A stretch of 32,510 bases of DNA from positions 1 through 32,510 of the forward strand of contig JAAZAT010000259.1 in the NCBI GenBank assembly GCA_012514185.1, given 5' to 3'. The notes under the pieces are model-generated. The model worked only from the letters and a program-made list of their open reading frames with translations. It searched no databases and was not told the DNA's origin. How positions within the stretch are numbered: position 1 is the first letter of the stretch; the number at the start of each line of letters is the position of its first letter. The position numbers were made by a program, and so were the translations under genes. The DNA comes from Spirochaetales bacterium. GTDB lineage: Bacteria > Spirochaetota > Spirochaetia > Sphaerochaetales > Sphaerochaetaceae. This document shows, one piece after another, positions 7,958 through 20,687 of this stretch.

Positions 7958-8656
7958 TCAGAGCGGCTTGATGCTCAGGTTCTCGCCCTCAAGACCGATT
8001 TTCACTCCTTGGGAAGTGAGTTGGATGCGGTTCGGATGGGCGAGCATCCACTTGTTTTGCTTGAACAGCAGCCTATCCTCTTCGGTGTTCTCCCTATACC
8101 GGCCTTCTTGGTCCAACGGCTCGTTCGTCCCCTTTGGAAGGACGATGATGGATTTGAAGCCCTCTTGGTGTACACACAGCGGAGCCAGGTGCAGCACCTT
8201 TGCCTTGATAAGTGCAACCGAACCCTTGGGAAAGTAAAAGAGTTCCGCTGCATTGGTGTGGACTGAATTGAAATCCTTCAACTGGGAGAAAGGAGTCAGG
8301 AACTGCAGGCAGTCGGTCACTGCAATGAACAGTTCGGGACTCTTGTGGTACTCGGCACCGTTGATCGATCTGTTGCGTCCGTTACAGTACCCAACCTGGA
8401 TCTCCTCTCCTTCAAAGTATGCAGACAGGCTCTTGGCCTCATCGAGCACTTCCAACTCCGGCAGTGAAGCGACATAGATGTTTCCCTCTTGGGGAATGGC
8501 GGTAAGCCTGTGCGCTGTCTCCAGGAGGTCGTCAACCTTCAGCTCTTCGAGCAAGGCCCCGTACTGGGCAAATCGTGAGGAGTCGATGCGATGAATCATG
8601 AAATGGGGATTTGCGCTGATCAATGCGCCGGGAATTTGATAAAAAGCTGATTGCAT
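7958..8656 (-). CDS. DUF4867 family protein in the sulfoglycolysis operon
   Basis: A 232-residue soluble protein that I place in the uncharacterised DUF4867 family. The family-like landmarks are GYCNGRN (about residues 89-95), AEYHKSPEL (101-109), AELFYFPKG (137-145), VLHLAP (154-159) and the VLPKGTN stretch (172-178). The mix of short strands with E102, H104, E138 and H156 suggests a cupin-like metal site (inference). It is the last gene of the leftward operon, 3 bp after the TSUP exporter stop. Cupin-type folds include several sugar isomerases and epimerases, so a role in anomer or keto-aldose handling of sulfo-sugars is possible, but no function is established. No signal peptide is visible. 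Confidence 0.72.
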   Translation of the reverse strand: MQSAFYQIPGALISANPHFMIHRIDSSRFAQYGALLEELKVDDLLETAHRLTAIPQEGNIYVASLPELEVLDEAKSLSAYFEGEEIQVGYCNGRNRSINGAEYHKSPELFIAVTDCLQFLTPFSQLKDFNSVHTNAAELFYFPKGSVALIKAKVLHLAPLCVHQEGFKSIIVLPKGTNEPLDQEGRYRENTEEDRLLFKQNKWMLAHPNRIQLTSQGVKIGLEGENLSIKPL

Positions 8657-8659
8657 GGT

Positions 8660-9403
8660 TTACCTCGTACCTATCAACATGAAGATTCCAGTCAACAAGA
8701 GCATGGAGAATACGATAAGGGAGAATTTGCGCGCATCGACCCTGTCGTGCACCCGTTCCCCGATGACCACCCCCACGACAACGAAGGGTATGAGCAAGGC
8801 TGTCGTTTTCAAGGTACCCTGGTCGAGAGATCCCTCTCCGATGTATGTTGCGATGATGATCGTATTGAGCGTTGTCCACAACAGGCAGAGCGTGGCCCTG
8901 AAGGAACCCTTGTCCGGCAGGGCGCGGGTGGCGTAGAGCACCACCAAGGGGCCGCCGGAGGAGAAAAGGCCATGAACGATGCCTCCCAGAACGAGCAGCG
9001 CATAGTAGGGCAGGGCCCGCTTTCCTTGGGGAAGGCCGCCCTGTTCCTGCTTGCGCACAAGCCGGTACAGCTGGCTGACTGAGACAAGAACGATGAATAC
9101 GGCCAGGATTATCGAGAGGGAGGAAGTGTCCTGGCTGCGAAAAAGATACATGCCGAAGGGAAGACCGGCAAGCATGCAAGCGGTGATGATTGCATAGTGC
9201 TTGAAGTCAATCCTGCGAACATTTCTCACCGCCAAGTACAGGGCCAGCAACCATGCAAGGATGGTGATGACTTTCACCGCAGTCTTCACCCCGAGCAGGG
9301 CGCTGACAAACGGCATGGCAAGCACTGCACACCCGAACCCGGTCACTGCTTCCAAGGCATGGGTGATCAGGACGACCACACCGCTGGCAAGAATTGCACT
9401 CAC
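8660..9403 (-). CDS. TSUP (TauE/SafE) family anion exporter
   Basis: A 247-residue polytopic membrane protein of the TSUP family. The N-terminal repeat has TGFGCAVLAMPFVSALLGVKTAV, and the second repeat has GGIVHGLFSSGGPLVVLYATRALPDK followed by an FRATLCLLW stretch; both are typical of TauE/SafE proteins, with about seven to eight membrane segments. The start is a GTG whose GTGA overlaps the stop of the alcohol dehydrogenase gene, so translation is coupled. TSUP members export sulfonates and sulfite-related anions, and one is a regular part of sulfoglycolysis clusters, where it removes the C2 or C3 sulfonate end product. Here isethionate is the expected cargo (inference from the neighbouring genes). 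Confidence 0.88.
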   Translation of the reverse strand: MSAILASGVVVLITHALEAVTGFGCAVLAMPFVSALLGVKTAVKVITILAWLLALYLAVRNVRRIDFKHYAIITACMLAGLPFGMYLFRSQDTSSLSIILAVFIVLVSVSQLYRLVRKQEQGGLPQGKRALPYYALLVLGGIVHGLFSSGGPLVVLYATRALPDKGSFRATLCLLWTTLNTIIIATYIGEGSLDQGTLKTTALLIPFVVVGVVIGERVHDRVDARKFSLIVFSMLLLTGIFMLIGTR

Positions 9404-10569
9404 CGCTTGGCCTCGATGATGCGGTGAAGGTCATCCTTGGACAGGGGCGGCTTCTGATTGTGCAGCTTCGGATCGTCAAGGCAACGGTCGAAGATCGAGA
9501 TGTCTGTGAGCTCGACGCCGATGTCGGCGAACCTGGTTGGAATACGAAGGTCCTGCATCAAAGTTGCGATGTCGTCTCTGAGGGCTGCAACGGCTTGCCC
9601 GTCGCTGAGGGAGGGGTGGAAATGCTTGCCGATGCAGGCCAGCTCTGTCCGATTCGTCTCATCCTGCACCGCCCAGTCGAAGATTTCCAGCAACGTGAAG
9701 GCGCACGCAAGGCCATGGGGAACATGCCAATCCTCGCTGAGGACAAAGGAAATGGCATGCCCGGCGGCGGTCCCGGTGATGTTGAAGGCGATCCCGGCTT
9801 TTGTGGATGCCTGCAGCATGGCCTTCATGAGTTCCCGCTTCCGGGGACTCTGCTCTTGGATGGCCTTGTGCAACTTGGGAAGGGTTTCCAGGATATCGAT
9901 GGCAGCATTGCGCCCTATCGTTCTGGTGATGGGAGTGCTGTTCTTGTTCCAGATCGACTCCAAGGCATGGTCCAGGGCATCCAGGCCTGTGGCAGCACAC
10001 AGGGAGGGGGGAACGCTGTCGAGCAGGGATGCAACCAAGAGTGCGGTGTGGGCGGTCATCAGGGGAGAGCCAAGGGTGTACTTCCTTCCGCTTTCGGCGG
10101 TGTAGACCCCCACTTTGGTGACTTCCGAACCCGTACCTGCGGTGGTGGGAATCAAGACCAGCGGTTTTGAGCGCTCGGTGATGCGCCGCTTCGGGTTGTT
10201 CGTGAGGTACTCCTCAAGACTTCCACCGTTGGATGCGAGCATGGCAAGCGCTTTAGCCGAGTCGAGGGTGCTGCCGCCGCCGATGCCCAGGACGACATCG
10301 CACGCAGCAAACCGCGGATCGGTATACATGTTCATGATGTCCACGGTTCGGGGGTTCGGCTGGATCTTATTGAAGATCCTGACTTGAACACAGTCAGCCA
10401 ACTCCTCCAGCAGGGTGTCCTTGGCAGGAATCGGGGCGCCGTCGACGACAGCGCCTACGATGAGCCCTTCCTCCTTGTTTGCCGAGAACTGGAGGATACT
10501 GGCAAGGGTTTTTCCGTTCAGATCGGCAAAGCTCTGGATATGAACCGAGCTTGCCAGGCTTTCGATCAT
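9400..10569 (-). CDS. Iron-type alcohol dehydrogenase, candidate sulfoacetaldehyde reductase
   Basis: A 389-residue group III (iron-dependent) alcohol dehydrogenase. The NAD(H) loop is GIGGGSTLDSAK (about residues 95-106), followed by PTTAGTGSEVTK (141-152). The metal ligands expected for the family are present: D197 and H201 in GLDALDHALE, H271 and H285, the last two with the same 14-residue spacing as in E. coli FucO. Its ATG overlaps the RpiB-like gene stop by 4 nt. In this operon the likely reaction is NADH-dependent reduction of sulfoacetaldehyde to isethionate, which would regenerate NAD in a fermenter; an iron-type ADH (SarD of Bilophila) is known to do this. Reduction of another short sulfo-aldehyde cannot be excluded. 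Confidence 0.88.
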   Translation of the reverse strand: MIESLASSVHIQSFADLNGKTLASILQFSANKEEGLIVGAVVDGAPIPAKDTLLEELADCVQVRIFNKIQPNPRTVDIMNMYTDPRFAACDVVLGIGGGSTLDSAKALAMLASNGGSLEEYLTNNPKRRITERSKPLVLIPTTAGTGSEVTKVGVYTAESGRKYTLGSPLMTAHTALLVASLLDSVPPSLCAATGLDALDHALESIWNKNSTPITRTIGRNAAIDILETLPKLHKAIQEQSPRKRELMKAMLQASTKAGIAFNITGTAAGHAISFVLSEDWHVPHGLACAFTLLEIFDWAVQDETNRTELACIGKHFHPSLSDGQAVAALRDDIATLMQDLRIPTRFADIGVELTDISIFDRCLDDPKLHNQKPPLSKDDLHRIIEAKR

Positions 10570-11036
10570 TTGAGATTCTCCTCTTCAATGGCCTGCACCT
10601 GTGCGAAGGCATTGGTCAGGAAGTCCTTCTTGAACTCCATCTTCTGGGTGAAGGCCATGGCAAGCCATGCATCGACGATTTGCTTGCCTACAAAGGGTGC
10701 AGTGATCCAGCCCCCGAGGGTGATGACGTTTGCATTGTTCACGATTTTCGCCCGTTCTGCACTGAAAATGTCATCCACCACGCAGGCATAGATGCCTTTG
10801 TGCTTGTTTGCCACGATGGCCATTCCCTGGCCGGTGCCGCAGACCAGGATCCCTTTCTCAGCCTTTCCCTCCTGGATCGCCTTAGCCACCTTGGGGGCCT
10901 GGATGAAGTAGGGTTGTGGTGCGTTCTCGCTCTCGATGCCGAAATCGAGGACGGTGTATCCGCTTTCTTTCAGATGTTCAACCAGCTCCTTCTTGAGGGG
11001 AAACCCGCTCAGATCGCTTGCTATCGCTATGGTCAT
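10566..11036 (-). CDS. RpiB/LacAB-like isomerase, candidate 4-deoxy-4-sulfoerythrose isomerase
   Basis: A 156-residue member of the RpiB/LacAB sugar-phosphate isomerase fold. The catalytic cysteine is kept (C66 in ILVCGTGQGM), but other usual residues are not: the canonical Asp-His near residues 9-10 is Asp8-Leu9, the His99 of E. coli RpiB is V99, and arginines that bind substrate phosphate in RpiB appear replaced (W110 at the GSR/GGR position, no arginine in the TQKMEFKKD region). This argues for a substrate other than ribose 5-phosphate. In described transketolase-type sulfoglycolysis an RpiB-like protein (SqwI) converts sulfoerythrose to sulfoerythrulose, which fits this position between the transketolase and the dehydrogenase. 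Both ends overlap neighbours by 4 nt. Confidence 0.85.
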   Translation of the reverse strand: MTIAIASDLSGFPLKKELVEHLKESGYTVLDFGIESENAPQPYFIQAPKVAKAIQEGKAEKGILVCGTGQGMAIVANKHKGIYACVVDDIFSAERAKIVNNANVITLGGWITAPFVGKQIVDAWLAMAFTQKMEFKKDFLTNAFAQVQAIEEENLK

Positions 11037-11983
11037 GCATTCCTCCTTGTGCCTTGTACCAATGTCAGGGCCTTGCGTGTGATTTCTTCTGCAGTGAGGC
11101 GGTAGTGCTCAGCGAGCCAGGATTGCGTACCGACCTGACCGAACTCGTCGTGGATGCCCACCATCGCCATCGGTGTGGGATAATTTTGTGAAAGGAAGTT
11201 TGCCACTGCAGAGCCCAAGCCTCCGGCTGTCTGATGGTTCTCGGCCGTTACGATGCAGCCGGTTTTCTTTGCATAGGAGAGGACGAGCTCCTCATCCAAG
11301 GGCTTGACGGTATGCATGTCGATTACCGCTGCATCCAAGCCTTTTTGCTTGAGCAACTCCCGCGCCTTGATAGCTTCACCGACCATGATGGCCCCGAGGG
11401 CGATGATGGTAACATCGCTGCCGTCGCCGAGCACCTTGCCCTTGCCCAAGGTGAAGGATTCTCCTTCTTCATACAAGGCAGGGACAGCCTTGCGGTGCAG
11501 GCGCATGTAGGTGCACCCTTGGTGCTCTGCACACGCTTTGACCAACGCCTTCAGGCTTACCGGGTCGGATGGCTCGATGATGGTCAGGCCCGGGATCATG
11601 CGCATCAGGCCGATATCCTCGAAGGGCATGTGCGTTCCCCCGTTGAAGGCCGCACTGATGCCGGGGTCGGTTCCCACCAGCTTCACGTTCAACCTTGCAT
11701 AGTTGGCGGAGATGAAGAACTGGTCAAACACCCGTCTTGAGGCGAAGCAACCGAAGGTGGCTGCAAAGGGAATCTTGCCGGCTGCGCTCAGGCCGGCGCT
11801 CACGCCGACAAGGTTGGCTTCGGCGACGCCGACATCGACGGCACGATCGGGGAACCTCTGCTTGAAAGCCATGGTCCCGCTTGCCCGCATTAAATCAGCT
11901 TCGACCACCATGATCCGGTCATCTGCCTGCGCAAGCTCGATAAGGGTATCGCAGTAGACTGCGCGCATCTCTTTGGTTTCCAT
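11033..11983 (-). CDS. Transketolase, C-terminal subunit (sulfo-transketolase SqwH/G-like)
   Basis: This is the pyrimidine-binding and C-terminal half of a two-subunit transketolase. The open frame extends to 12037, but AGGAGG (11989-11994) lies 5 nt before the ATG at 11983, giving 316 residues. The TPP-activating glutamate is E55 in VGVAEANLVGVSAGL; the TFGCFASRRVFDQ region and the C-terminal transketolase domain (DVTIIALGAIMVGEA, then VTAENHQTAGGLGSAV) follow in normal order. The gene begins 10 bp after the N-terminal subunit stop, and its stop overlaps the RpiB-like start. Split transketolases are common in Firmicutes and spirochaetes; the sulfo-specific role is inferred from the operon and the operators. 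Confidence 0.93.
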   Translation of the reverse strand: METKEMRAVYCDTLIELAQADDRIMVVEADLMRASGTMAFKQRFPDRAVDVGVAEANLVGVSAGLSAAGKIPFAATFGCFASRRVFDQFFISANYARLNVKLVGTDPGISAAFNGGTHMPFEDIGLMRMIPGLTIIEPSDPVSLKALVKACAEHQGCTYMRLHRKAVPALYEEGESFTLGKGKVLGDGSDVTIIALGAIMVGEAIKARELLKQKGLDAAVIDMHTVKPLDEELVLSYAKKTGCIVTAENHQTAGGLGSAVANFLSQNYPTPMAMVGIHDEFGQVGTQSWLAEHYRLTAEEITRKALTLVQGTRRNA

Positions 11984-11993
11984 CATCTCCTCC

Positions 11994-12815
11994 TCATCCC
12001 AGCTCGGCAATCGCCGCTTTGGCGGTTTGCAGATCAAAGTTCATATTGTGGTTGGTTACCTTGTTCTCGCAGAAGGAGGCTCCCTTTCCCTTGATGGTAT
12101 CCAGGATGATCATCGAGGGTTTGTCCGATTGCTCTTGTGCCTTCTGGATGGCACCATCCATCGCTGCAAGGTCATGGCCGTCGACGCGCTGGGTGAACCA
12201 ACCGAAACTCTTCCATTTCATCTCGATGTCCCCGAGGCTCATGATGTCATCGGTCATGCCGTCGATCTGCATTTTGTTGTTGTCGGTGAAGGCAATCAGG
12301 TTTGCGAGCTTGTAATGGGCGGCAAAAAAGGCAGCCTCCCAGTTTTGTCCTTCCTGACTCTCCCCGTCGCCGATGACGGCATAGACATAGCGGTCCTTTT
12401 TGTCGATTTTCCCTGCATAGGCTAGACCGCAGGCGGCTGACAGGCCCTGGCCGAGAGAGCCTGTGGTCATGTCAATTCCCACCGTCTTGGTCCGGTCGCA
12501 GTGACTGGGAAGGTTGGTTCCTCCCTGGTTGAGCGTATCCAGCTCCGATAGGGGGAAGAAGCCCTTGAGCGCCAGTGTTGCGTACAACGCCGGTCCTGCA
12601 TGACCCTTGGACAAGACCAGAAGGTCACGGTCCTCCCAGGTCGGGTTGGCAGGATCGATGTGCATCACCTTGCCGTAGAGCAGGGCCAGCAAGTCCGCGA
12701 TCGAGAGGGCGCCGCCGATGTGTCCGACGCCGAGATTTCCAATCGTATACAGGGTTTTCTTGCGGATTTCCTTGGCGAAATCCGACAGGGTCCGCAGTTG
12801 TTGCGAGGTGAGCAT
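11994..12815 (-). CDS. Transketolase, N-terminal subunit (sulfo-transketolase SqwG/H-like)
   Basis: A 273-residue TPP-diphosphate-binding half of a split transketolase. GHIGG (31-35), SKGHAGPALYA (69-79), GSLGQGLS (119-126) and the GDG...NN metal/TPP motif (GDGE 149-152 to N179-N180) are all present. It is the first gene of the leftward operon; AGAGAGG stands upstream of the ATG, and the promoter and operator at 12835-12879 lie directly ahead. With the C-terminal subunit it should transfer two-carbon ketol units. In the proposed pathway it acts twice: sulfofructose plus glyceraldehyde 3-phosphate gives sulfoerythrose and xylulose 5-phosphate, then sulfoerythrulose plus glyceraldehyde 3-phosphate gives sulfoacetaldehyde and xylulose 5-phosphate. 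A housekeeping role cannot be excluded from sequence alone. Confidence 0.93.
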   Translation of the reverse strand: MLTSQQLRTLSDFAKEIRKKTLYTIGNLGVGHIGGALSIADLLALLYGKVMHIDPANPTWEDRDLLVLSKGHAGPALYATLALKGFFPLSELDTLNQGGTNLPSHCDRTKTVGIDMTTGSLGQGLSAACGLAYAGKIDKKDRYVYAVIGDGESQEGQNWEAAFFAAHYKLANLIAFTDNNKMQIDGMTDDIMSLGDIEMKWKSFGWFTQRVDGHDLAAMDGAIQKAQEQSDKPSMIILDTIKGKGASFCENKVTNHNMNFDLQTAKAAIAELG

Positions 12816-12940: not shown

Positions 12941-14104
12941 ATGCAAGGAAATCCACTGAGGGCATCAGATTTGCGGGTCCATAATCAGAATATGGTGCTC
13001 TCCCTCATCCATGCTTCCAAGGAAGCAGGCACCAGCCAATCGGAGGTGGTGCAAAAGACCGGGTTGAAAGCCCCGACCATTTTCCGCATCTTCACCTCCT
13101 TGGAAGAAGAAGGCCTGATAGTCCCCGCCCAGGGCAATACAGAGGATGTCGTGGCAAAGAAGGGAAGGAGACCGGTCCTGTATGTGGTTTCCAAGCATGC
13201 CCGGTATACCATCGGTCTTGAATTTTGGACCGCCTTTCTCTCCCTCGGTGTCTTCGACTTCCAAGGCGAGCGGATCTATTCGGTCATGCATCCGCTCTCC
13301 GAATCCGTGCATGCGGGCCAGGTAATCGACCTCATCGTGAGCGAGATCCATCGGATACTGGCCGAACTTTCCATCCCCAAGCAGAAGATCATCGGGGTGG
13401 GGGTGGCTGCCCCCGGCCAAGTCGACCTCGCAGGCAAGCGGGTGCGCTACTATCCCCGCATCGAGGGCATGAAGGATATTGCCTTGGTCGATGAGCTTTC
13501 GAGCCGGCTCGGCCTTGCGGTGATGATCCACAACAACTGCAGCGCCCTTGCCTTCAGCGAGTACCGCTACGGCGGATTCAACCACCAGGGCAGCATGTTC
13601 ACCTTCCTGCTCAGGACCGGGGTGAATGGTGCCTTCGTGCATGATGACGAGATCTACATAAACAGCCAGAACCAGACTATCGAGTGTGGCCATATCCCGA
13701 TCGACAGTGACGGGCCCCGGTGCAGTTGCGGCAGTCGCGGCTGCCTGCAGGCGTATCTGCAGGACCTGGACCCGAACTCCGTGGAGCTCAGGCTCGCCCT
13801 GTTTGAAGGGCTTGAAGAGAAGCTCCAAAACGGTGATGGAGTGGCAAAGCGGACTATCGAACGGGCTGCCGGGTACCTGGTCATCGCGATGAAGGTTCTC
13901 ACCCGTCTGCTGGCTCCGAAATCCTTCCTGTTCGTTGGGTGTTGTGAGACCATCGCCCAGGCCTTGCGTGAACAAGTCGAACACCTCTTGAGCGAACCTG
14001 ATGCTTTCTGCTCGGAAACCCCGCAAATTTTTGCTACCGCGTATGACCCGTTGCTTGCCCAGAAGGGGGCGAGCGACTTGGTGCTCCAAGAGTACTTCCG
14101 CTGA
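12941..14104 (+). CDS. ROK-family transcriptional regulator of the sulfoquinovose genes
   Basis: A 387-residue ROK repressor. The N-terminal winged helix (about residues 15-75) has the pattern SQSEVVQKTGLKAPTIFRIF then LEEEGLI. The ROK sugar-kinase-like core follows, with GVGVAAPGQVD, a NNCSALAFSEYRYGG stretch, ECGHIPIDSDGPRCSCG and the zinc-binding CSCGSRGC motif. The ATP-binding DxGGT motif of active kinases is degenerate (GLEFWTAFLSLGV), as in many ROK repressors, so it is a sensor and not a kinase. AGGGAGGG precedes the ATG. It lies between the two divergent blocks, each of which has the TTACTT-N5-AAGTAA operator, so it is the natural candidate to bind both and respond to SQ or a pathway intermediate (inference). 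Confidence 0.92.
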   Translation: MQGNPLRASDLRVHNQNMVLSLIHASKEAGTSQSEVVQKTGLKAPTIFRIFTSLEEEGLIVPAQGNTEDVVAKKGRRPVLYVVSKHARYTIGLEFWTAFLSLGVFDFQGERIYSVMHPLSESVHAGQVIDLIVSEIHRILAELSIPKQKIIGVGVAAPGQVDLAGKRVRYYPRIEGMKDIALVDELSSRLGLAVMIHNNCSALAFSEYRYGGFNHQGSMFTFLLRTGVNGAFVHDDEIYINSQNQTIECGHIPIDSDGPRCSCGSRGCLQAYLQDLDPNSVELRLALFEGLEEKLQNGDGVAKRTIERAAGYLVIAMKVLTRLLAPKSFLFVGCCETIAQALREQVEHLLSEPDAFCSETPQIFATAYDPLLAQKGASDLVLQEYFR

Positions 14105-14166: not shown

Positions 14167-14218
14167 CTATATCAGGTGAAGCTTGGCCTTCCCCTTTCCC
14201 ATCCATAAGGAGTCGAGC

Positions 14219-15535
14219 GTGAAACATCCCGTAACGATAGCAGTAGTATGCCTTGCAAGAAAAACCTATGACTATGAGGCTGCAAGACAGCTCTATTCCA
14301 AGATCCGTCAGGATCTCAAGAAGATCGAGGATGTCCAGTGGTGCTTTATCGATGAGCTGGTGATCAGCCAGGAAGACGGCATGGCAGCTGCATCCAAGCT
14401 GGCAGGCGAGCATGTGGATGGCTTGATCTGCATTTCCGGGACATTCCATCTGGGGCATCTGGTCCTGATGCTCAAGCGCGAGCTTTCGGTTCCTGTTCTT
14501 CTGTGGGGCCTGCCTGAGCTGCCGTACAACGGGGGAAAGATTCGGCTCAATTCGGTATGCGGAGTGAACCTGAACGCCTCCAACCTCTATAAGAGCGGGT
14601 TTGACGACTATTCGGTCATCATCCAACATACGGTTGACGAGGATTGGATTGATGCCCTTCGGGTGATCAAGGCGATGAAGGGCGCAAAAATCGGCATCAT
14701 CGGATATCGTGCCGACGGATTCTTCAATGTCGGGGTGCAGGACAACCTGCTTTTCGGACAGACCGGAGCCTTGGTCGATCATTATGAGCTGTCCGATGTG
14801 CACACCTATGAGGTGCCTGCCGAGCAAGTTGCACAGCGGCGCAAGCAGCTTGAGGCGACGTTCGATGTCTCAACCCTGTCTGCATACCAGCTGGATAAGG
14901 TGTCCCAGCTCTCTGCAAAACTTGATGCCTTCTACCATGCAAACGGACTGTCCGCCCTTGCGATCCGCTGTTGGCCGGAGTTTGCCCGCGATTTCGGGGT
15001 TTCCCCCTGCGCGGCGATGTCGTTGCTGCAATCAGAGGGCCTCATCCTGGCTTGCGAAGGGGACATCGACGGAGCTCTTTCCATGATCGCCCACAAGGCA
15101 CTTGGGGCCCAGACGCCCTTCCTCTTCGACTTCTCGCAAGTGGATTTCGAACAGGATTTCGCTCTTTTCTGGCATTGTGGGGTGGCCCCCTGCAACCTTT
15201 GGGACGGTGTATGCAACCGAAGCCTGGACACCTACTTTGCCGGCGGCAAGGGTGTGACAGCAGATTTTGTCCTGAAGAGCGGAGAGCTTTCGGTGCTTCG
15301 CATCGATTCAGCCCGGGGTGGATACCGCATGTTCCTGCAGAAGGCGAAAGCCATACCCATGGAGAAGCTGCTGAAGGGAACGTACATGAAGGTGGTGTTC
15401 GACCGGCCGGTCAGGGAGGTATTGAACCTGGTACTGGACAACGGACTCGCCCACCACTCGTCGGTGGTGTACGGCTCTTTCATCCGCCCCTTGGAGTTCG
15501 TTGCCAAGATCAAGGGATGGCAGGTAATCCAGTAG
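14219..15535 (+). CDS. L-fucose/arabinose isomerase-like protein, candidate sulfoquinovose isomerase
   Basis: The frame is open from 14183, but AAGGAG at 14207-14212 sets the GTG at 14219 as start, giving 438 residues. The sequence has the layout of the fucose-isomerase fold: an N-terminal Rossmann-like domain (DGLICISGTFHLGHL near 67-81, VPVLLWGLPELPYNGG near 91-106), then IGIIGYRADGFFN, and the catalytic C-terminal part with CWPE (251-254), ACEGDIDGALS (278-288), FLFDF (301-305) and FWHCGVAPCNLWDG. E280, D304 and H319 are likely metal or acid/base residues by analogy with FucI. In sulfoglycolysis variants using unphosphorylated sulfofructose, an isomerase of this kind (SqvD) makes sulfofructose from SQ. 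First gene of the rightward block; the substrate is inferred from its neighbours. Confidence 0.82.
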   Translation: MKHPVTIAVVCLARKTYDYEAARQLYSKIRQDLKKIEDVQWCFIDELVISQEDGMAAASKLAGEHVDGLICISGTFHLGHLVLMLKRELSVPVLLWGLPELPYNGGKIRLNSVCGVNLNASNLYKSGFDDYSVIIQHTVDEDWIDALRVIKAMKGAKIGIIGYRADGFFNVGVQDNLLFGQTGALVDHYELSDVHTYEVPAEQVAQRRKQLEATFDVSTLSAYQLDKVSQLSAKLDAFYHANGLSALAIRCWPEFARDFGVSPCAAMSLLQSEGLILACEGDIDGALSMIAHKALGAQTPFLFDFSQVDFEQDFALFWHCGVAPCNLWDGVCNRSLDTYFAGGKGVTADFVLKSGELSVLRIDSARGGYRMFLQKAKAIPMEKLLKGTYMKVVFDRPVREVLNLVLDNGLAHHSSVVYGSFIRPLEFVAKIKGWQVIQ

Positions 15536-15607: not shown

Positions 15608-16873
15608 ATGTTGAAAAAATCAAGATTACTTGCGGCTCTGCTGATGCTTTGCCTGGTCTTCCCGCTCGTTGCCCAGGGACAAGTCGAGAGTGCTCCCGCC
15701 AAGGAGATTGAACTTCGCTGGGCGAGCATTTGGGTAGGAAACGACAGCAAGGCCCCTGCAGTTGAAGCCTTGGTGGCTGAATACAACGCCAAGAATGCCG
15801 GAAAGATCAAGGTCGTGATTGAACCGCAGCCCGACTACAATGCCTACGAGCAGAAAGTGCGAACCAGCCTTGCTGCAGGACAGGCACCGGCGGACATCTT
15901 TACGATCAAGTTCAATCCGACCACGGCGACCTTCTACCAGAGCAACCTGCTCATGGATTTCGCAAAGGTCATGGATGCTTCTTGGAAGCAGACCTTCGAT
16001 GCCGGCTCACTCGAGCAATCGACCGTTGACGGCATGCTCAAGTCCCTGCCGATGGAGACTGCAATCCTGCCCATCTGGTACAACATGGATGCATTCAAGA
16101 AAACCGGCATCACCGAGCTTCCGACCACCCTTGATGGAATGTTTGCTGCATTTGACAAGCTGAAGGCAGCCGGCATCACCCCGACCAGCCAGATGACCGG
16201 TGACACCAATGCGTGGACTTCCATGATTTGGTTCAGCCATTTCGCCGTTTCATTGGGTGGAACCAATGTATGGGAGAAGAGCTTCACCGATCCAGCCTTC
16301 GTCGAAGCAGCCAAGCTGACCAAGCGCATGATCACCGAATACTCGACCAGTGATGCAGTCGGCTTGGGAGCCGGCGGCAGCGGCGGTCACTTCCTCGCCG
16401 GTCGCACTGCAGTCTTCTCCAACGGGCCTTGGTATGCCGGTCGTGCAGACCTTGCAGCAACCCCGTTCTTCAACTCCATCAAGATTGCGGGTCTTCCCGC
16501 TGCCGGTTCGACCAAGGATTTCATGATCAGCCGCCTGCAGGCAAACATCTGCGCAGCCTCCTCCAAGGATAAGGCTCGAGAAGCAGCTATTGTCGACTTC
16601 CTGAAGTTCTTGACCAGCGCTCCCTCCATCTCCAAGATTGCCGAGACCAGTGGTGCAATGTTCGCCATCAAGACCGACTATCGTCCCACAAAGGCTCTGC
16701 AGAAGCAGTTCTATGATGTTGCTGTTGCTGCCAAGACCACCGCTTTCGATCTCGAAGCCGCCCTCGGTGCAGAAGTGACGCTTGAGTTTGCCCAGCAACT
16801 CGGAGCCCTTGCCCTCGGACGCATCAGTGCAGAAGAGTTCTGCGCCTTGGTCGACCGCAAAATCGAACGCTAA
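15608..16873 (+). CDS. ABC sugar-binding protein, candidate SQ/SQ-glycerol receptor
   Basis: A 421-residue extracellular solute-binding protein of the MalE type (family 1). The N-terminus MLKKSRLLAALLMLCLVFPLVAQGQ is a signal peptide, with no lipobox cysteine. Typical features follow: a first strand IELRWASIWVGND, the EYNAKNAGKIKVVIEPQPDYNAYEQKVRTSLAAG section, DIFTIKF, the MLKSLPMETAILPIWYNMDAFKKTGI hinge region, and GRTAVFSNGPWYAG. GGAGA lies upstream of the ATG. It is followed by two permease genes and the SQase gene, so the probable ligand is SQ or sulfoquinovosyl glycerol; the binding specificity is not visible in the sequence. It acts outside the inner membrane. Confidence 0.92.
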   Translation: MLKKSRLLAALLMLCLVFPLVAQGQVESAPAKEIELRWASIWVGNDSKAPAVEALVAEYNAKNAGKIKVVIEPQPDYNAYEQKVRTSLAAGQAPADIFTIKFNPTTATFYQSNLLMDFAKVMDASWKQTFDAGSLEQSTVDGMLKSLPMETAILPIWYNMDAFKKTGITELPTTLDGMFAAFDKLKAAGITPTSQMTGDTNAWTSMIWFSHFAVSLGGTNVWEKSFTDPAFVEAAKLTKRMITEYSTSDAVGLGAGGSGGHFLAGRTAVFSNGPWYAGRADLAATPFFNSIKIAGLPAAGSTKDFMISRLQANICAASSKDKAREAAIVDFLKFLTSAPSISKIAETSGAMFAIKTDYRPTKALQKQFYDVAVAAKTTAFDLEAALGAEVTLEFAQQLGALALGRISAEEFCALVDRKIER

Positions 16874-16932
16874 CAATCCGGTATGCTGCCGTCATCCCGG
16901 CGGCAGCATGAATTTGTAATCAGGAGCATGGT

Positions 16933-17826
16933 ATGCAAGCAGTTGGTACGCACCGAAGCCGAGTCTGGACAGCAAGAGTTCTATTTTTGCTTCCGGTCTC
17001 CGTTCTCTTCTTTTTCTTTTTCATCTATCCGTTTCTCTTCACCATCTACACAAGTTTCACCAGTTGGAGAGGGATCGGGTCGATGAAATTCAACGGCCTG
17101 GCCAACTATACCAAGCTCCTTGGCGACCCCACCTTTCGCAAAGCCTTGGGAAACAACGTCGTATGGGCGCTTTCCCAAGGGTTCATCCAAGTTCCCCTGG
17201 CCTGCTTGATAGCCATGATCCTGGTGCGCAAACCTCGGTTCTGGCGATCGCTGAGAACCATTTACTACCTTCCCAACGTCATTTCCACCGTCGCCCTGGC
17301 AATGGTCTGGGTCGCCATTTACAACGTGGAGGGACCCTTGAATGCAATTCTGGGTGCCCTGTTCGGCGCTGAGAAGCGCAACTGGCTGGGCAACCCTGAT
17401 ACCGCCCTCTTCGCGGTCATCTTCCAGACGGTCATCTATATCGGTTACTTCATGATCATCCTGCTCGCTTCGGCCATGAACATTCCCCGTTCCCTGTACG
17501 AGGCTGCCGAGATCGACGGGGCTTCCACCTTCCAGCAGGAGTTGAGCATCACCCTTCCCATGCTGCGCGGCAGCCTCATCACCACCATGACGCTGGCAAT
17601 GGCCTACGGCATGCGTCACTTTGAATCGACCTTCCTGATGACCGGAGGCGGGCCTGCGTATGCGACCACCACCATGGGCATCGACCTCTATCTGAAAATG
17701 GATGCCCTGCGGTACAGCGAGGCAAGTACTGCAGGCGTGTTCCTCATAATCATGGGAACGGTGGTGATCACCGTTCTTCGCAAGATCTTCGGTTCTTCAG
17801 ACCCGATGAGCGAAATGGCACAGTAG
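16933..17826 (+). CDS. ABC sugar permease, MalF/UgpA type
   Basis: A 297-residue inner-membrane permease with six predicted membrane segments (the first at about residues 17-40, LLPVSVLFFFFFIYPFLFTIY). The EAA loop that contacts the ATPase is SLYEAAEIDGASTFQQELSITLPML (about residues 190-215), as is normal for the MalF/UgpA class. CAGGAG at 16921-16926 is 6 nt before the ATG. It follows the binding-protein gene after 59 bp and precedes the second permease by a few bases, so the three belong to one transporter. No ATPase gene is present in the window, so it must share a MsmK/MalK-like ATPase encoded elsewhere. Confidence 0.94.
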   Translation: MQAVGTHRSRVWTARVLFLLPVSVLFFFFFIYPFLFTIYTSFTSWRGIGSMKFNGLANYTKLLGDPTFRKALGNNVVWALSQGFIQVPLACLIAMILVRKPRFWRSLRTIYYLPNVISTVALAMVWVAIYNVEGPLNAILGALFGAEKRNWLGNPDTALFAVIFQTVIYIGYFMIILLASAMNIPRSLYEAAEIDGASTFQQELSITLPMLRGSLITTMTLAMAYGMRHFESTFLMTGGGPAYATTTMGIDLYLKMDALRYSEASTAGVFLIIMGTVVITVLRKIFGSSDPMSEMAQ

Positions 17827-17835
17827 GAGATGACG

Positions 17836-18678
17836 ATGAAGCACACCTATACACCCGCTCAGATCATCGCCAACTTCCTCAAATGGATCTTGCTGCTCTC
17901 CCTGTTGGCCGTAGCCCTGCTGCCTCTTCTGTGGCTGCTGATAAGCTCGCTGAGGACGAACCTGGAGCTGCAGACCAACCCCTTCGGCTGGCCGAAGGAC
18001 ATGCAATGGGTCAACTATGCAAAGGCCCTTGCCATGGCAAGCCTGCCCAGGTTGTTGCTCAACTCCGCAGTGGTGGCTGCAAGCAGCGTCATCCTCAACA
18101 GCGCCGTCACCGCCATGGCCTCCTTCATCCTCGCTCGTGAACGATTTCGGGGCCGGGATGTGCTCTACACCTTGTTTACCGCCGGGGTCCTTGTTCCCGT
18201 CATCTCGTTCATGGTTCCCTACTTCTCTCTCATTACCAAGAGCGGGCTGTACAACACCTTGCTCGCTCTGGTGCTTGTCTATACGGCAGTGAATATTCCT
18301 GTTTCAATCTTTCTGGTAACCGCCTTCATGAAGTCGATCCCCAAGGAGTTGGAAGAGGCCAGCGTCATCGACGGTTGCGGCTTTTTCAAGCGGTTCTCGG
18401 TCATTATTCTCCCGCTCTCCCGTTCCGGCCTCGTCACTGCGGCTACCTTCTGCTTCATCTACAGCTGGAATGAGTTTCTGATGGCGATGCTCCTGACCTC
18501 CTCGATCGAATCGAGGACCATCCAGCTTGGCATCAAGTTCTTCACCAGCCAATTCATCACCGACTATGCTAGCATGTATGCAGCGGTAGTCATCACCATA
18601 ATTCCCAGCATCGTTGGATATGTGTTCCTCCATGACAAGATCATCGGCGGCTTGACCGCCGGCGCGGTGAAGGGGTAG
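17836..18678 (+). CDS. ABC sugar permease, MalG/UgpE type
   Basis: An inner-membrane permease of 280 residues. Two ATGs are possible, 17830 and 17836; AGGAG (17825-17829) gives a 6-nt spacing to 17836, so that one is preferred. Six membrane segments are expected, and the EAA loop reads KELEEASVIDGCGFFKRFSVIILPL. The conserved C-terminal half includes SWNEFLMAMLLT and the end IIGGLTAGAVKG, typical of MalG-type proteins. The SQase gene starts 2 bp after its stop, which implies a shared transcript and coupled translation. Confidence 0.94.
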   Translation: MKHTYTPAQIIANFLKWILLLSLLAVALLPLLWLLISSLRTNLELQTNPFGWPKDMQWVNYAKALAMASLPRLLLNSAVVAASSVILNSAVTAMASFILARERFRGRDVLYTLFTAGVLVPVISFMVPYFSLITKSGLYNTLLALVLVYTAVNIPVSIFLVTAFMKSIPKELEEASVIDGCGFFKRFSVIILPLSRSGLVTAATFCFIYSWNEFLMAMLLTSSIESRTIQLGIKFFTSQFITDYASMYAAVVITIIPSIVGYVFLHDKIIGGLTAGAVKG

Positions 18679-18680
18679 GC

Positions 18681-20687
18681 ATGATCAGCTTTTCCAAACA
18701 AAACGGCAAACTCTCGGTTTTCTACAATCAGCTCAAGATTCTCGAACACAGCGAAAGTTCTCCCATGCTTGTGCTCAAGCGAGGCAAGGAGAGCGTGGAC
18801 ATGTACCGGGGCAACTTTTTCATCAGTGATGCAATTGAAGAGACCCTGCCGCTTGGCACCTATCTGCTCAGTGAGTCGTACAGCGAAGGCAGGGGTGTTT
18901 CCAATCTCACCTTCAGCGCAGGTGCAAAGACGTTCAGTCTCGAGTTGAGCGAGCGGGACGGGAGGCTCCACCTGGGTTTCTCACCCCTTCCAGAGCCCTA
19001 CAACCGACTCTTCATCCGCTTCCATGCCGACCCGCTCGAGTGTGTATGGGGTTGCGGGGAGCAGTTCTCCCATTTCAACCTCAGGGGAAAAAACTACCCC
19101 CTGTGGACCCAGGAACAAGGAGTGGGCAGGAACAAGGAGACTGAAATCACGCAAATCGCCGATCGTCTGGACCGTGCCGGCGGCGATTACCATACCACCT
19201 TCTACCCGCAGCCCACCTTCGTCTCAAGCAGGCGCTACTTTGTGCATGCCGATACCTATGGGTATGCTGATTTCGATTTCTCCAATCCGTCGTACCATGA
19301 ACTGCAGTTCTGGGACGTTCCTGACAGCATTGTCCTTTCCGTCAAGCCGAGCTTGCTGGAAGTGGTGCAGGATGTCTCCCGTTTCCTCGGGAGGCAGCAA
19401 ACCCTTCCAGGGTGGGTGTACGACGGTATCATCTTGGGGATGCAGGGTGGAACCAGCACCTGCCTTCAGAAGCTTGCGCGGGTGCAAGAGTCCAACATGA
19501 AGGTTGCAGGCTTGTGGATCCAGGACTGGGAAGGGGAGAAATACACCAGCTTCGGCAAGCGCCTTCGATGGAACTGGCAGTGGGACCAGAAGCTCTATCC
19601 CGGTCTGGATGCCGAGATTGTGCGACTGCGGCAGAGCGGGGTCCGGGTTCTGGGCTACATCAATCCCTACGTGCTGGTCGATCATCCGCTCTACGAAGAG
19701 GCTGCGCGGCTTGACTTGTTGGGAAAGCGGGAGGACGGCTCGGTGTATCTGGTTGATTTCGGCGAGTTCGATGCAGCCATCGTCGACTTCACCAAGCCTG
19801 AGGCTGTAGCCTGGTACAAGCAGGTGATCAACAAAGAGCTCATCGATTTCGGCCTATCCGGCTGGATGGCCGATTTTGGGGAGTACCTGCCCACCGATGT
19901 CGTACTTGCCGGAGGAAAGCCGGCAATGCTCGAACACAACAGGTGGCCGGGCTACTGGGCTGAGATCAACAAGGATGCCATCCAGGAGGCCGGCAGGCAG
20001 GACGATATTCTTTTCTTCATGCGCGCCGGTTGCGCGCGCAGCCTCAGTTCGTGCCGGATGATGTGGGCGGGGGACCAGAATGTGGATTGGTCGGAGGATG
20101 ACGGTCTTCCTTCCGTCCTCACTGCAACCCTCTCGCTGGCGATGAGCGGCATGGGGCTCAATCACAGCGATATCGGAGGTTACACCACCCTCTATGGCAT
20201 GAAACGCAGCAAGGAGCTTTTGATCAGGTGGGCCGAACAGGCCGCCTTCTCCCCCTTGATGCGCACCCACGAGGGAAACCGACCAAAGGACAACTGGCAG
20301 TTCGACAGCGACCAAGAGACCATCGATGCACTAGCCCGGATGACTGATGTGCACGTCAAGCTCAAGCCGTATCTTATGCATCTGGACGAGGAGAATGCAC
20401 ATGAGGGGATTCCGGTGGTCAGGCCGATATTCCTGCACTACGAGCTTGAGGCTTTCTGGAATGTGAAGGACTCCTATCTCTTGGGACGGGACCTCTTTGT
20501 TGCTCCCGTCCTCGAACAAGGAGCTGGAAGGCGGGAAGTGCTGCTTCCCGACGACCAGTGGGTGCACCTGTTCACCAAGCTCGAGTACCAGGGAGGGAGG
20601 CACACGGTCGAGGCGCCGCTGCTCCGCCCTCCAGTCTTCTACCGAAAGGCCAGCAGCTTCGCCCCTCTCTTTGCATCGATTCAGTAG
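18681..20687 (+). CDS. yihQ: Sulfoquinovosidase, GH31 (YihQ-like)
   Basis: This 668-residue GH31 alpha-glycosidase is the anchor of the whole assignment. It follows E. coli YihQ closely from memory: WIQDWEGEKYTSFGKR, WMADFGEYLPTD, MWAGDQNVDWS, HSDIGGYTTLY and MRTHEGNRPKDNWQFD. The catalytic nucleophile is D398 and the acid/base D465, 67 apart as in YihQ (405, 472). The sulfonate-recognition residues are also present with identical spacing: R294 and W297 (YihQ R301, W304) and Y501 (Y508). Ordinary GH31 alpha-glucosidases lack this set. No signal peptide, so it acts in the cytoplasm, releasing SQ from imported sulfoquinovosyl glycerol. Its last 7 nt overlap the end of the convergent endonuclease gene. 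Confidence 0.96.
   Translation: MISFSKQNGKLSVFYNQLKILEHSESSPMLVLKRGKESVDMYRGNFFISDAIEETLPLGTYLLSESYSEGRGVSNLTFSAGAKTFSLELSERDGRLHLGFSPLPEPYNRLFIRFHADPLECVWGCGEQFSHFNLRGKNYPLWTQEQGVGRNKETEITQIADRLDRAGGDYHTTFYPQPTFVSSRRYFVHADTYGYADFDFSNPSYHELQFWDVPDSIVLSVKPSLLEVVQDVSRFLGRQQTLPGWVYDGIILGMQGGTSTCLQKLARVQESNMKVAGLWIQDWEGEKYTSFGKRLRWNWQWDQKLYPGLDAEIVRLRQSGVRVLGYINPYVLVDHPLYEEAARLDLLGKREDGSVYLVDFGEFDAAIVDFTKPEAVAWYKQVINKELIDFGLSGWMADFGEYLPTDVVLAGGKPAMLEHNRWPGYWAEINKDAIQEAGRQDDILFFMRAGCARSLSSCRMMWAGDQNVDWSEDDGLPSVLTATLSLAMSGMGLNHSDIGGYTTLYGMKRSKELLIRWAEQAAFSPLMRTHEGNRPKDNWQFDSDQETIDALARMTDVHVKLKPYLMHLDEENAHEGIPVVRPIFLHYELEAFWNVKDSYLLGRDLFVAPVLEQGAGRREVLLPDDQWVHLFTKLEYQGGRHTVEAPLLRPPVFYRKASSFAPLFASIQ

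Follow-up and report, generated by a model that had tools for sequence, protein, structure and literature searches.

The window, that is, the whole stretch analyzed here, comprises 32,510 nucleotides of a Sphaerochaetaceae genome (Spirochaetales bacterium, assembly GCA_012514185.1, contig JAAZAT010000259.1). On its minus strand, an open reading frame with an ATG start (10566..11036) encodes a 156-residue isomerase of the PF02502 family, the proposed 4-deoxy-4-sulfoerythrose (SE) isomerase SqwI. The minus-strand genes are transcribed in the order sqwG, sqwH, sqwI, sqwF, sqwE, and DUF4867, with the neighbors of sqwI assigned by Pfam. The products of sqwG (11994..12815) and sqwH (11033..12037) are, respectively, the thiamine-diphosphate-binding subunit of a transketolase and its pyrimidine-binding plus C-terminal domains. 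Downstream follow sqwF (9400..10569; also matched in NCBIfam), an iron-containing alcohol dehydrogenase and proposed sulfoacetaldehyde reductase, sqwE (8660..9403), a TauE/SafE exporter proposed to export isethionate, and a DUF4867 gene (7958..8656), which is called SftX in published clusters (PMC13219744). The stop codon of sqwH overlaps the start of sqwI, and the stop of sqwI overlaps the start of sqwF (ATGA in both cases); a GGAGG site lies upstream of sqwI. The overlaps couple sqwH, sqwI, and sqwF, and count in favor of the SqwI assignment.

On the plus strand lie a ROK-family regulator (12941..14104; Pfam), an sqvD/sftI-like sulfoquinovose isomerase (14183..15535), an ABC sugar transporter (15608..18678), and the yihQ sulfoquinovosidase gene (18681..20687; PRK10426, 903 bits). 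In the transporter, the binding protein is recognized by Pfam and the two permeases are called from open reading frames and conserved gene order alone. For the sulfoquinovose isomerase, the best and only NCBIfam match is NF048012, at 207 bits, under the curated cut-off of 700. In YihQ, the positions of E. coli Q262, Q288, R301, W304, and Y508 (which we take to be sulfonate positions) and of D405 and D472 (presumably catalytic) are all conserved in the alignment.

Because a complete sulfo-transketolase (sulfo-TK) cluster surrounds it, the gene at 10566–11036 is best read as the sqwI of the sulfo-TK sulfoquinovose pathway, with a product acting on SE (probability about 0.78). The first-pass annotation had made the same assignment, and the genome context bears it out. 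Sulfo-TK clusters of such make-up are known from Clostridium sp. MSTE9, Spirochaetes, and rumen bacteria including Sphaerochaetaceae, as described in published reports (PMC9594981, PMC12890257, PMC13219744), and the published SqwI proteins (Clostridium sp. MSTE9, Faecalicatena, Caproiciproducens, Sphaerochaetaceae) share both gene context and PF02502 family with the window. In the proposed pathway, SqwGH would remove a two-carbon unit from 6-deoxy-6-sulfofructose to give SE, SqwI would shift the carbonyl from C1 to C2 to yield 4-deoxy-4-sulfoerythrulose, and SqwGH would cut the latter to sulfoacetaldehyde, to be reduced by SqwF to isethionate and exported by SqwE. In the SqwI step, Cys66 is probably the proton-shuttling base, via a cis-enediolate, as in RpiB.

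Among sulfo-TK clusters (L071, L074, L078, L083, L108), the SftI-like matches fall into two classes, ∼54%–85% vs. 23%–28% identical to the 14183–15535 product of the window, which suggests that non-equivalent isomerases fill the sulfoquinovose-isomerase step.

The sqwI product matches PF02502 (LacAB_rpiB) with 141.8 bits (cut-off 24.7) and narrowly passes PRK05571, “ribose-5-phosphate isomerase B” (137.3 vs. 135 in NCBIfam), so that automatic annotation would misname it RpiB. The solved structures closest to it are also RpiBs. Both points favor a conventional ribose-5-phosphate isomerase B that the cluster has taken up and that would supply the pentose phosphate pathway with xylulose 5-phosphate. 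Such a role is very improbable, since the product stays under the rpiB equivalog TIGR01120 (112.4 vs. 138.65) and lacks His10, His99, and Arg110, and since the host genome encodes an additional RpiB of canonical type at another locus (L001; Asp-His, HNNAN, GGR, RHQRR). With that separate enzyme, the isomerization of ribose 5-phosphate is covered; no RpiA was detected in the assembly, which is 86% complete and consists of 315 contigs. The first-pass annotation had likewise considered ribose-5-phosphate isomerization unlikely, and the missing residues and the canonical RpiB agree with it. The LacB equivalog is not reached either (100.7 vs. 234). In LacAB galactose-6-phosphate isomerase, which has the PF02502 fold, each subunit also lacks some catalytic residues, but the enzyme is a hetero-oligomer with subunits that complement each other, whereas the window has a single gene: a PF02502 search of the host genome finds sqwI as the only member on the contig, with no lacA/lacB pair.

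Residues were compared by alignment with E. coli RpiB from MG1655 (L117); the codons given here are all on the minus strand. Besides the fold and Asn100, the two proteins share Asp8 (E. coli Asp9), Cys66 (10839..10841; the catalytic base position, Cys66 in E. coli), and Thr68 (E. coli Thr68). At three positions, the RpiB residues are replaced: Leu9 (11010..11012) stands for His10, a phosphate contact in RpiB; Val99 (10740..10742) for His99, at the ring-opening position; and Trp110 (10707..10709) for Arg110, the phosphate contact that corresponds to M. tuberculosis Arg113. These residues and their numbering, including the retained Cys66, are as first annotated. Further changes are absent from the first annotation: Arg83 is changed into Tyr83 (10788..10790), and the Leu/Met of RpiB at position 95 into Arg95 (10752..10754), the pocket position of LacA Met-92 and Coccidioides immitis Arg105. 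The region of the R-H-x-x-R phosphate motif of RpiB, in which E. coli Arg133 is replaced, contains Met133-Glu134; it aligns less surely, and these two residues are tentative because segment 130–135 is modeled at low confidence (pLDDT <50). The AlphaFold2 model as a whole has a pLDDT of 86.3 and a pTM of 0.77, and over residues 1–129 it superposes on RpiB structures with a Z of 20.7, tied for C. immitis 3sdw, C. thermocellum 3he8, and T. maritima 1o1x. Two subunits contribute to the active site.

Homologues came from whole-protein similarity searches (in Spirochaetota, in Chloroflexi, and in the class to which a Clostridiales genome belongs) and from scanning GTDB genomes with a profile; the counts cover 97 distinct sequences that adjoin SqwG, SqwH, or SftI. 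At position 9, Leu occurs in 83, Arg in seven, Lys in six, and Met in one, and His in none of the 97. Ile/Val99, Trp110, and Tyr83 are present in 97/97 and Arg/Lys95 in 96/97, with the restriction that the patterns of the profile scan (80 loci) contained Trp110 and Met133 and are circular for those columns. Cys66 is present wherever that position is readable, Thr68 is nearly invariant, and Asp8 occurs in 91/97. Counting against the reading, L123, which is linked to a glycyl radical enzyme, has Leu95.

Because the scan patterns included Trp110 and Met133, a second search was begun from SqwH. It gave 60 loci, 28 of them with a PF02502-like open reading frame in the short flank; 24 are of the SqwI type, and every one of the 24 combines a non-His residue at position 9 with Tyr83, Arg/Lys95, Ile/Val99, and Trp110. 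The pattern is not due to chance, as all SqwI-clade homologues found next to a transketolase show these states again. The first-pass suggestion that such residues could mark SqwI in general thus holds in the 97 homologues and in the SqwH-first set. That second search also returned a transketolase adjoining a canonical RpiB (L229; H9, R83, M95, H99, R110), with no sulfoquinovose genes seen in its short flanks; adjacency to a transketolase is therefore not diagnostic of SqwI on its own. Three weak matches (L192, L199, L200) belong to a remote subfamily and give no useful alignment. Nor does Trp110 alone serve as a marker: two RpiB-like proteins (L031 and L157) have Trp110 together with both histidines.

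The conservation bears on another reading, in which the protein is catalytically weak or accessory: SE would isomerize spontaneously, and the protein would mainly scavenge or channel it. Spontaneous isomerization of SE is indeed reported, and it hampered the direct assay of SqwI activity (PMC9594981), a point that also counts against the SqwI reading. The maintenance of Asp8, Cys66, and Thr68 argues against a mere accessory role, as does the adjacency of sqwI and transketolase genes, kept across Spirochaetes, Chloroflexi, Verrucomicrobia, and Clostridia. In addition, sqwI is among the top 15% of transcribed genes during sulfoquinovose degradation in rumen species (PMC13219744). A catalytically weak or accessory protein is very unlikely.

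Within the SqwI family, the Clostridia proteins (L119–L122) are 41%–49% identical to that of the window and have Lys9, Lys95, Ile/Val99, and Trp110; they differ at position 9 from the Spirochaete form, which has Leu9. Among these Clostridia loci, L166 has the gene order of Caproiciproducens KNHs216 (F-G-H-I-SftT-SftI), a growth-tested strain (PMC13219744). A Spirochaete-type cluster is present in Clostridiales bacterium Firm_16 (L084/L118), with SqwI and SqwH both 78% identical to those of the window, unlike the other Clostridia; this suggests either horizontal transfer or a misbinned contig.

Two loci of Spirochaetota family f27 (L162, 8257–8730; L163, 8271–8744) contain divergent SqwI (39%–42% identical to the window's), with Thr instead of the otherwise conserved Asp8 and with Arg9; their clusters comprise SftI, YihQ, a metallo-beta-lactamase-like gene (recognized by eye), a DASS transporter, and SqwGH. 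In L165 (G575:C1:5328000-5347000), the PF02502 gene at 9446–9949 encodes an SqwI-clade isomerase with Glu8, Met9, Leu95, Ile99, and Trp110. Its neighbors are a split transketolase, a glycyl radical enzyme with its activase, a TRAP transporter, a transaldolase-like protein, and an SDR. The glycyl radical enzyme scores 605 bits for hydroxyproline dehydratase and 570 for sulfopropanediol dehydratase, below all curated equivalog cut-offs, and the locus possibly represents an undescribed sulfonate or short-sugar pathway. Finally, in two unrelated genomes, PF02502 genes without His99 (L164, 4978–5469; L173, 8497–8982) share a stretch with MttB-like genes (trimethylamine methyltransferase family).

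The first annotation, as we read it, attributed all three losses (His10, His99, and Arg110) to the sulfonate. Alignment with RpiB and with EryI/DerI-type isomerases, which that annotation had called for, separates two aspects: the pattern is general to SqwI, but the histidine losses are common to EryI/DerI. EryI from an erythritol operon (L113), the Brucella enzyme 5ifz, and the OiaX-linked enzyme of R. etli (L114) have Ser9, Arg95, Ser99, and Arg110. L113 and L114 pass the cut-off of NF051858, the D-erythrulose-4-phosphate isomerase equivalog (EryI controls score 257.6 and 257.9). Relatives in Listeria, Pasteurella, and Rubrobacter, which adjoin dihydroxyacetone-kinase-type genes, have Asp/Glu9, Arg95, and Ser99. 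The substrates of all these comparison enzymes are, or probably are, tetrose phosphates; phosphate-binding proteins thus also occur without His10 and His99, contrary to a purely sulfonate-based explanation. Arg110, too, is absent in the Listeria DerI-like protein and in Chloroflexi relatives (Leu, Gln).

Since the histidine losses are common to phosphate (EryI/DerI) and sulfonate (SqwI) enzymes, they go with a four-carbon substrate and probably mark a tetrose that cannot cyclize and needs no ring opening. Ribose 5-phosphate binds RpiB as a furanose, and His99 helps in opening the ring. In SE, C4 would bear a carbon–sulfur bond and not a hydroxyl; with no free O4, neither SE nor erythrose 4-phosphate would form a furanose ring, and the ring-opening histidine would be dispensable in SqwI and in EryI/DerI alike. 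In E. coli RpiB, the H99N change leaves Km unchanged and lowers kcat 26-fold (PMC3755991). For C. immitis RpiB (3qd5, 3sdw), the authors suspected a shorter substrate, judging by where the phosphate lies and by the Ser in place of the ring-opening histidine (PMC3212906). That enzyme resembles SqwI in the Arg at position 95 and the replaced histidine, but it keeps Arg110, has Ser99, and binds phosphate. Thus, two of the three losses would fit a short, non-cyclizing substrate, and chain length fits the histidine losses better than the head group does. On these alignments, the losses should be split, with the histidines assigned to chain length and Trp110, Tyr83, and the C-terminal change to the head group.

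SqwI and EryI/DerI both lack the two histidines and have acquired Arg95, which raises the alternative of an EryI/DerI-type tetrose-4-phosphate isomerase that handles erythrose 4-phosphate made by the transketolase; a tetrose substrate is likewise common to both, being proposed for SqwI. In the unconstrained tree, from which the trait columns were omitted, the SqwI proteins, including those of the Clostridia loci, group in a single clade (100/100 support), and EryI/DerI forms a separate one (91/88); a tree that joins the two is not rejected (AU p 0.53), which favors this alternative. One or two losses of the ring-opening His are therefore both compatible with the data. A statistical claim of co-evolution between His99 loss and Arg95 gain was discarded, as no more than two independent events are well supported, which leaves a sign test uninformative. 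The residues and the neighborhood make an EryI/DerI function very unlikely: where EryI/DerI have Ser99 and Gln/His103, SqwI has Val/Ile and Asn, it has lost Arg83 as well as the Arg110 present in most EryI/DerI, the window protein scores 114 bits against the NF051858 cut-off of 240, and its neighbors are sulfoquinovose genes and not ery or dha genes. SqwI is set apart by Tyr83, Trp110, Ile/Val99 with Asn103, and a rebuilt C-terminal segment. It is the combination of Tyr83, Trp110, and an altered C-terminal helix that marks SqwI.

Within the SqwI reading, Arg/Lys95 is the best candidate for holding the anion, which would lie nearer to Cys66 by one carbon than it does in RpiB. In most RpiBs, position 95 is Leu or Met. 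The equivalent LacA Met-92 lines the pocket (PMC3755991), and C. immitis Arg105, with Arg120 (position 110), is near an active-site chloride or iodide and may relay charge from Ser109 to the bound phosphate (PMC3212906).

The sulfonate site of YihQ is an Arg-Trp-Tyr set. We tentatively propose, at somewhat less than even odds, that within PF02502 a replaced His99 with Arg/Lys95 denotes non-cyclizing four-carbon substrates (EryI/DerI and SqwI), that Tyr83, Trp110, and an altered C-terminal motif in combination denote the sulfonate-binding SqwI, and that, by analogy, an Arg/Lys-Trp-Tyr set convergent with that of YihQ would hold the sulfonate.

In cow rumen microcosms, sulfoquinovose is degraded predominantly through the sulfo-TK pathway (PMC13219744), of which SqwI is the least characterized step. 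The enzyme kind is known; the residue signature is apparently undescribed in the accessible portions of the literature naming SqwI. The signature lets annotators tell SqwI from RpiB and from erythrose-phosphate isomerases, and it makes the mechanism testable, by separating the losses that would follow from a non-cyclizing substrate from those that would follow from the exchange of phosphate for sulfonate.
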